In this document: one piece after another, positions 406 to 63,844 of the stretch
Layout: each line of letters opens with the position of its first letter
Numbering within the stretch: position 1 is the first letter of the stretch
Assembly (NCBI GenBank): GCA_963377175.1
Contig: CAUJNA010000824.1
Span: 1,014,501 to 1,078,500, forward strand
DNA length: 64,000 nucleotides
Reading direction: 5' to 3'
Source: Effrenium voratum
Lineage: Eukaryota > Sar > Dinophyceae > Suessiales > Symbiodiniaceae
Notes under the pieces: generated by a model
What the model saw: the letters and a program-made list of their open reading frames with translations, nothing else
Databases searched by the model: none
Told to the model about the DNA's origin: nothing
Made by a program: the position numbers and the translations under genes

Positions 406-486
406 TCAGTCGGGAGCCGCCTGCATCAGCAAGGTCATGATCTCCTTCCACTGGGCGCTGGCCTGCGGGTTCGCCTTCATCTCCTC
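406..486 (-). CDS. LARS1: Terminal coding exon with stop ([18 protein letters not shown])
   Basis: 81 nt after a CAG acceptor, 26 residues then TGA. Loosely fits the MPELKKYMKKVMPF region of LeuRS. If correct, the protein ends earlier than animal LeuRS. It could instead be the last exon of another gene. Confidence 0.6.
   Translation of the reverse strand, partial: EEMKANPQASAQWKEIMTLLMQAAPD

Positions 487-63844: not shown

Follow-up and report, generated by a model that had tools for sequence, protein, structure and literature searches.

A leucyl-tRNA synthetase gene of the dinoflagellate Effrenium voratum divided into 80 short exons over about 74 kb

We identified a gene for a leucyl-tRNA synthetase (LeuRS) that runs on the minus strand through the whole of a 64,000-nt stretch of the Effrenium voratum genome, here called the window (contig C824, 1014501-1078500, in an assembly of 1.156 Gb and 3699 contigs). 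E. voratum is a free-living alga of the Symbiodiniaceae, and LeuRS is an essential protein of translation. Our preferred reading, to which we give a probability of roughly 0.93, is that this nuclear gene is intact and encodes a eukaryote-type LeuRS, that it would be transcribed as one minus-strand pre-mRNA with 79 introns and 80 exons, and that it reached this state through intron gain to saturation. The locus is an intron-rich dinoflagellate gene that is already in the databases, and its intron density is about twice the species mean.

Results

Identification of the LeuRS gene

We analysed the window together with 40 kb of flanking sequence on each side; negative coordinates denote flank past window position 1 on the same contig. 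The first minus-strand LeuRS exons were found with six-frame motif patterns at 47274-47291 (GTGIVT) and 33672-33686 (KMSKS), and all 15 of the 15 PDB sequences matching the GTGIVT exon are LeuRS (leucine--tRNA ligase). We aligned LeuRS profiles to the region by spliced dynamic programming (DP), admitting GT, GC and GA donors and AG acceptors. A general profile of 109 eukaryotic LeuRS proteins of 950-1250 residues, drawn from the best 120 of 5504 matches, scored 1125 bits on the minus strand with 62 exons from 65650 to -1405, versus 28-43 bits in 12 controls (the plus strand, the reversed and the complemented sequence, six column-shuffled profiles, a reversed profile and two flanks). With a profile of 32 close relatives, from which E. 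voratum was excluded and in which no row is more than 78% identical to the joined-protein query, the minus strand scored 2381 bits with 80 exons, and restricted to the window it still gave 2076 bits in 66 exons; the seven controls of this profile reached 30-41 bits (28-43 for all 19 controls). The 32 close relatives are proteins from metagenomes or transcriptomes, which we take to be dinoflagellate orthologues by their closeness only; among the best 120 of 5027 matches, the window-type relatives that carry a dinoflagellate name are E. voratum rows. These alignments confirm a collinear minus-strand LeuRS throughout the window. An earlier note on this DNA, which read collinear LeuRS microexons from the letters, had named just such a splice-aware alignment with GC and GA donors as one of its checks, and its reading is borne out.

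Searching the database with the joined protein led to a deposited E. voratum protein (P0121; 'unnamed protein product [Effrenium voratum]' in GenBank, 'leucine--tRNA ligase' in UniRef), which maps to the contig in 93 exons, gap-free and with 1704 of 1704 residues. The mapping charged 6 for a GT or GC donor, 6.5 for GA and 9 for any other, and 1 for an AG acceptor and 6 for any other. Because P0121 matches the contig letter for letter, the gene is already annotated, and the earlier note was mistaken in holding that annotation would miss it. Exon ends are identical between the close-relative-profile DP and the deposited model for 71 of the first 81 exons, and eight of the ten mismatches lie at the gene's two ends. 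The general-profile DP agreed with the deposited model at 48 of 62 exons; its exons near 13039-13031, 4427-4395 and 3951-3822 were replaced under the close-relative profile, whose own alignment includes one spurious 2-nt exon. A six-frame family search of the genome, with six of 26 candidates scored, placed none of its eight LeuRS matches on the window's contig; reading the raw sequence recovered a gene that this search had not listed.

Exon-intron structure

Spliced alignment places 65 of the gene's 80 exons in the window, from 63844 down to 421. The gene overhangs both window ends, with 5' exons at 66911-64523 and the last at -746 to about -7174, a span of about 74 kb. The earlier note was right that the gene spreads over more than 63 kb, and its count of about 56 exons was too low. 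Its upper limit of 63844 is the exact start of the first exon in the window; at the lower end, the last exon stops at 421, not at 406.

Exon numbers below follow P0121, and exon positions, all on the minus strand, rest on the P0121 mapping together with the close-relative-profile DP. The first exon inside the window is exon 7 (63799..63844), followed by exons 8 (63445..63489), 9 (63056..63081) and 10 (62307..62364); judging from relatives, a fibronectin-like (FN3-like) insert would start at about exon 10. Next come exons 11 (62130..62210), 12 (61584..61613), 13 (61046..61111), 14 (59828..59887), 15 (58185..58202, 18 nt), 16 (57518..57593), 17 (57167..57246), 18 (55588..55619), 19 (55036..55056), 20 (54012..54083), 21 (53455..53485), 22 (53163..53188), 23 (52539..52591) and 24 (52235..52251), the last being the shortest at 17 nt. 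Exons 25 (51049..51096), 26 (50348..50422), 27 (50092..50138), 28 (49812..49878), 29 (49246..49284), 30 (48941..48989), 31 (47996..48018) and 32 (47755..47823) lead to exon 33 (47216..47291), which carries the editing-domain motif and is also backed by the motif search and the PDB match. Downstream lie exons 34 (46356..46426; the DP starts it at 46421), 35 (45353..45396), 36 (44718..44782), 37 (44064..44087), 38 (43804..43843), 39 (43495..43519), 40 (42933..42983), 41 (42442..42488), 42 (41788..41833), 43 (40936..40963), 44 (40327..40346), 45 (39444..39492), 46 (39009..39031), 47 (38539..38573), 48 (37752..37809; the DP ends it at 37755), 49 (37498..37539), 50 (37269..37315), 51 (36884..36923), 52 (35954..35976), 53 (35764..35827), 54 (35061..35087), 55 (34695..34757), 56 (33634..33689, with the KMSKS motif, found by motif as well) and 57 (32700..32779).

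A giant intron of 14,610 nt (18090..32699) separates exon 57 from exons 58 (18009..18089), 59 (17778..17835), 60 (17345..17374), 61 (16970..17026), 62 (16348..16404), 63 (16034..16071), 64 (15416..15479) and 65 (15168..15234). A second giant intron of 10,240 nt (4928..15167) precedes exons 66 (4905..4927), 67 (3828..3885), 68 (2696..2715), 69 (2267..2287), 70 (1172..1211) and 71 (421..486), the last inside the window. Both introns are placed by the P0121 mapping and were characterized by a domain scan. From exon order and splice phase the earlier note had predicted five exons; four of its positions (53455, 49878, 44064 and 35061) are exact ends of exons 21, 28, 37 and 54, and the fifth, 15350, is intronic, lying between exons 64 and 65, where inspection of the three minus frames by eye showed no resemblance to LeuRS.

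Exon sizes and splice sites

In the P0121 mapping, exons 1-80 total 3747 nt, with a mean of 46.8 nt, a median of 46.5 nt and a range of 17-81 nt; 48 of the 80 are at most 51 nt long and 22 at most 30 nt. The 79 introns have a median of 565 nt (range 96-14610) and total 70,339 nt within a gene span of 74,086 nt. Exons make up 3079 nt, or 4.8%, of the window, and the 65 exons there average 47 nt, close to the earlier estimates of a mean near 50 nt and a coding share under 5%. The joined frame of exons 1-81 contains no stop in 3828 nt and shows none of the disruption that marks a pseudogene, and GC at third codon positions (GC3) is 0.84 in coding exons versus a GC content of 0.54 in introns.

The splice sites are those of dinoflagellate spliceosomal introns, with a GC, GT or GA donor and AG followed by G. 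Donors of the 79 introns are GC in 58 cases, GT in 14 and GA in seven, as the earlier note expected for GC and GA, and GC, GT and GA donors have been published for Symbiodiniaceae. All 79 acceptors are AG, and G follows in 77, compared with 33% G after AG region-wide; the base after AG carried no weight in the P0121 mapping.

Exon lengths are more even than random intron placement gives. Their coefficient of variation is 0.40 versus 0.97 under random placement, and none of 5000 simulations was as even (exons 1-80); evenness was likewise unmatched when sites were weighted by the observed junction context (exons 1-81). Random placement of 79 introns is expected to leave about 14 exons above 81 nt and about 23 below 17 nt, and we observed none of either. 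Exons shorter than 17 nt are hard to place, yet all P0121 residues are accounted for. Evenness was tested in this one gene, and two observations run counter to a general size rule: the 3' extension of the deposited model has exons of 130, 141 and 462 nt, and a second LeuRS gene, described below, has an exon of 1778 nt.

According to the available part of PMC11114475, E. voratum genes average 20 kb, 92% intron and 18 introns, from which we calculated about 1.6 kb of exon per gene, an exon length of 84 nt and a density of 11 introns per kb. The LeuRS gene has 21 introns per kb of coding sequence, versus the calculated mean of about 11. In mammals, 94% of protein-coding exons are longer than 51 nt (PMC4317164, as far as accessible), compared with 32 of the 80 LeuRS exons. 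The word 'leucyl' is absent from the main text of PMC11114475 as available. In the literature titles and abstract openings searched, a set that covers few subscription journals, neither the structure of this gene nor the FN3-insert LeuRS clade is described.

Domains of the encoded protein

P0121 carries HIGH at residue 81 and KMSKS at residue 845, and the HIGH, editing and KMSKS motifs occur in the order of a class Ia synthetase. The exon at 47291-47216 encodes the CP1 editing-domain motif GTG.VTSVP..SPDD. The tRNA-synt_1, Anticodon_1 and RBD_LARS1 domains all score above their cut-offs, with 60.2 bits for the anticodon-binding domain (PF08264) and 27.3 bits, versus a cut-off of 27, for the LARS1 C-terminal domain (PF24810). 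These features identify a eukaryotic cytosolic-type LeuRS, encoded in minus-strand microexons of a dinoflagellate host.

An insert of 137-163 residues, linker included, follows the HIGH region in the 12 rows of the FN3-insert clade that were measured. Pfam fn3 matched five of five other rows of this clade, from outside the window type, at E<0.01 (two above the cut-off) and none of the four window-type rows scanned. By hhalign, four window-type inserts matched eight other inserts of the clade at 99.8%, a value that belongs to these 12 rows and not to P0121 itself, because the rule for cutting out inserts worked only there (four of 33 window-type rows and eight of ten others).

Residues 1-25 of P0121 (exons at 66911-66077) make up a leader, rich in Arg and Ser, that precedes an internal Met (MSILRLCRRLSSSAAASATRSRKP-MAEAKQ), and P0124 has a similar leader. 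Inspected by eye, this leader suggests that a longer form of the enzyme may also serve the mitochondrion. A stretch resembling a GST C-terminal domain (FLGG...RW.KHM) is seen by eye at the N-terminus of the FN3-clade LeuRS proteins P0157, P0158, P0160, P0162, P0165 and P0166, and a similar-looking stretch lies C-terminally in most window-type relatives (P0123-P0155).

The 3' end of the gene

The deposited model departs from its relatives at the end of exon 80, and its exons 81-93 have no counterpart in them. Twenty-nine of the 32 close relatives end in a short tail (...LNEHLSTRSYxxGG..., by eye), and two of three scanned show similarity to Arc1p_N below the cut-off. Downstream, the exons for this tail were represented by MTDMTELNKHLESR and a 21-bit candidate ending at -9822, and the rest were not convincingly found down to -40000. 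The extension of P0121 is instead fascin-like and has an internal start that resembles a signal peptide by eye. Among the best 120 of 5027 matches, only P0121 and its variant P0122 contain a Fascin domain. The ten listed relatives of the fascin-like part are separate proteins, two of them with a subtilase domain, in a list whose length filter would hide a 1700-residue fusion. The extension probably reflects an erroneous joining of the LeuRS model to the gene that follows. A fascin-like gene related to subtilase-fascin proteins lies at -9004 to -18029 on the same contig.

A second LeuRS gene of separate descent

A second eukaryote-type LeuRS gene lies at 155037-158718 of contig C394 (locus L018). 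It is nearly complete, scores 2551 bits and was found in five exons over 3.7 kb; its product has a long N-terminal extension. We built an unrooted tree of 66 rows, 64 of them chosen from 233 database proteins and the other two being the C394 protein and the LeuRS part of P0121. One clade (100/100) unites the window gene with eight close relatives and is adjoined by seven rows (P0157, P0158, P0160, P0161, P0162, P0165 and P0166; 99/97) and then by three rows that include the haptophyte Haptolina brevifila (P0177, taxid 156173); the whole FN3-insert group is supported at 100/100. The label 'Hpha' of P0160 we take to mean the diplonemid Hemistasia. C394 falls together with ten relatives, which include Cladocopium goreaui and Symbiodinium microadriaticum; Perkinsus marinus groups with them, and Chromera velia does so less strongly (97/91), marking the alveolate line. 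Uniting the two LeuRS types costs 413 log-likelihood units (p-AU 2e-49), for groups that were defined once a quick tree had been inspected. On the tree, C394 is a separately descended paralogue of the window gene.

Because the window gene groups with FN3-insert LeuRS of a haptophyte and other protists, the tree suggests that it may have been acquired horizontally, with massive intron gain afterwards; the gene would either come from outside the alveolates or be an anciently kept paralogue. A leader of more than 50 residues precedes the conserved start in at least 15 of the 24 C394-type rows listed, and most window-type rows start with a short MA..RRD. C394 looks organellar to the eye because of these long leaders and the short starts of the window type, and the native LeuRS may thus have moved to an organelle. 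In the accessible part of PMC6723311, each chromerid has one eukaryotic and one bacterial-type LeuRS.

The four introns of C394 lie 1, 3, 8 and 21 nt from the nearest window introns. With an intron every 47 nt, such near-coincidence is no evidence of shared positions, and we rejected that reading of the 1- and 3-nt offsets. We also set aside C394 as a retroposed copy; a search for a DinoSL relic upstream gave weak, chance-like matches only. Intronless bacterial-type LeuRS frames occur at C2223:1794099-1796495 and C1979:11012-13408 (open for 900 aa on a 3.7-Mb contig and for 902 aa on a 1.0-Mb contig), and a reading frame beside the C2223 copy resembles YggS by eye. Both contigs look bacterial, as if they had not been removed from the assembly.

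Intron content

In the 14.6-kb intron, same-strand open reading frames (ORFs) at about 19.7-26.7 kb encode RVT_1, RNase H and C-5 DNA methylase domains above cut-offs and zf-RVT below. The 10.2-kb intron holds same-strand ORFs of 1112, 575, 419 and 398 aa, with RVT_1 below the cut-off and DUF4326 above. We rejected a reading of 20-28 kb as low-complexity repeat: the region has no 40-nt direct or inverted repeats, and its ORFs are those of reverse transcriptase (RT), RNase H and methylase. Arrays of tetra- and octanucleotides (TATG, TGTC, GAGAAAGA), each about 450-470 bp, lie in introns at 36242-36695, 55852-56309 and 59083-59555.

Among 80 introns, two have terminal inverted repeats above the 99th percentile of a re-pairing null, and the introns as a set do not show the inverted ends of introners. 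Nor do they show target site duplications: none of 24 junction positions reached p<0.05 against the re-paired null, the lowest p being 0.057, and there was no junction duplication beyond the fixed AG|G. Intron-to-intron alignments inside the gene number 15 in nine pairs, seven of them in one pair, and all are internal.

Discussion

Our data suggest a gene whose single pre-mRNA, read from the minus strand, would be at least 74 kb long. It would lose 79 introns to the spliceosome, mostly with GC and otherwise with GT or GA donors and with AG|G acceptors, sites that are seen in the genomic sequence. The 80 exons that remain, each 17-81 nt long, would together give about 3.75 kb of coding sequence and a LeuRS of roughly 1,250 residues, which presumably works in the cytosol and charges leucine tRNA there. 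The saturation could be accounted for if introns were gained again and again at AG|G-like sites until exon lengths fell within a narrow range, and judging from the tree the gene may have entered the lineage from another protist.

That the microexons are an alignment artefact, with some small islands matching by chance, we consider next to negligible. The two models do differ at ten of 81 exons, eight of them at the gene ends, and doubtful exons appeared near 13.0, 4.4 and 3.9 kb in the first DP and a 2-nt one in the second, but a DP blind to the species' own protein reproduced 71 of 81 deposited exons exactly, G follows AG at 77 of 79 acceptors and controls stayed at 28-43 bits. The earlier note's reading would fall, by its own account, if LeuRS were encoded elsewhere and these segments were silent. 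LeuRS is indeed encoded elsewhere, nearly complete in the same assembly, but by the separately descended C394 gene. We find it very improbable that the window is a silent relic and that the five-exon C394 gene supplies the working cytosolic enzyme: the window gene is open throughout, without stop or frameshift, its GC3 is high, its full-length relatives are up to 87% identical (the nearest over 1049 columns), its end branch is shorter than that of C394 (0.093 versus 0.25), and the long leaders of the C394 type, by eye, point to an organelle. We therefore keep to an intact LeuRS gene in 80 exons.

How the introns and the gene itself arose is less secure. The literature describes introners in dinoflagellates, and in E. 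voratum for 5% of the genes, and old, decayed insertions stay compatible with such an origin; the scarcity of inverted ends (two of 80 introns), the lack of junction duplication past AG|G and the internal position of every intron-to-intron alignment nevertheless make it unlikely that these introns are introner insertions with terminal inverted repeats and target duplications. As to descent, one scenario involves no transfer, with an ancient FN3-insert paralogue kept by dinoflagellates, haptophytes and some protists and lost elsewhere. We rate it as a serious possibility, short of even odds: the unrooted tree shows only that FN3-insert rows group (100/100), and patchy occurrence of proteins among eukaryotes is a recognized problem (PMC1920508, in its available part), but parallel losses would be required, and Perkinsus and Chromera have only the other LeuRS type among the matches listed (best 120 of 5504 and 120 of 5027). 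The scenario in which a horizontally acquired LeuRS filled with about 79 introns to saturation, leaving exons of 17-81 nt, and the vertically inherited LeuRS kept four, we offer tentatively and think somewhat doubtful.

Exons of such sizes are considered difficult to splice by exon definition, and dinoflagellate nuclei are largely without nucleosomes. If saturation holds, intron gain in dinoflagellates, or selection on splicing, would be ruled by exon length, and truly confined exon sizes would give a testable rule on intron gain and recognition. That a single nucleus holds two LeuRS genes with separate histories, one with 79 introns and the other with four, offers a natural experiment. The even exon sizes and the contrast between the two genes are worth follow-up.

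The protein belongs to the same family as human cytosolic LARS1 (PDB 6KID, 6LPF), to which its editing-domain exon matches and with which it has RBD_LARS1 in common. Unlike human LARS1, its close relatives have, behind HIGH, an FN3-like insert that measures 143-148 residues with its linker (four rows). The deposited model P0121 describes the same gene, but continues into the fascin-like part. Dinoflagellate retroelements with a cytosine methyltransferase are known (PMC5890265, in the part available), and the ORFs in the 14.6-kb intron likewise combine RT, RNase H and C-5 methylase; this candidate element differs in that it sits in a host intron in the same orientation. The gene resembles typical intron-rich genes of Symbiodiniaceae in its splice-site types and in being mostly intron. 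In the accessible part of PMC5177918, however, genes of S. microadriaticum have on average 21.8 exons of 109.5 nt and those of Breviolum (S.) minutum 19.9 exons of 101.7 nt, whereas the LeuRS gene of the window has 80 exons with a mean of 47 nt.
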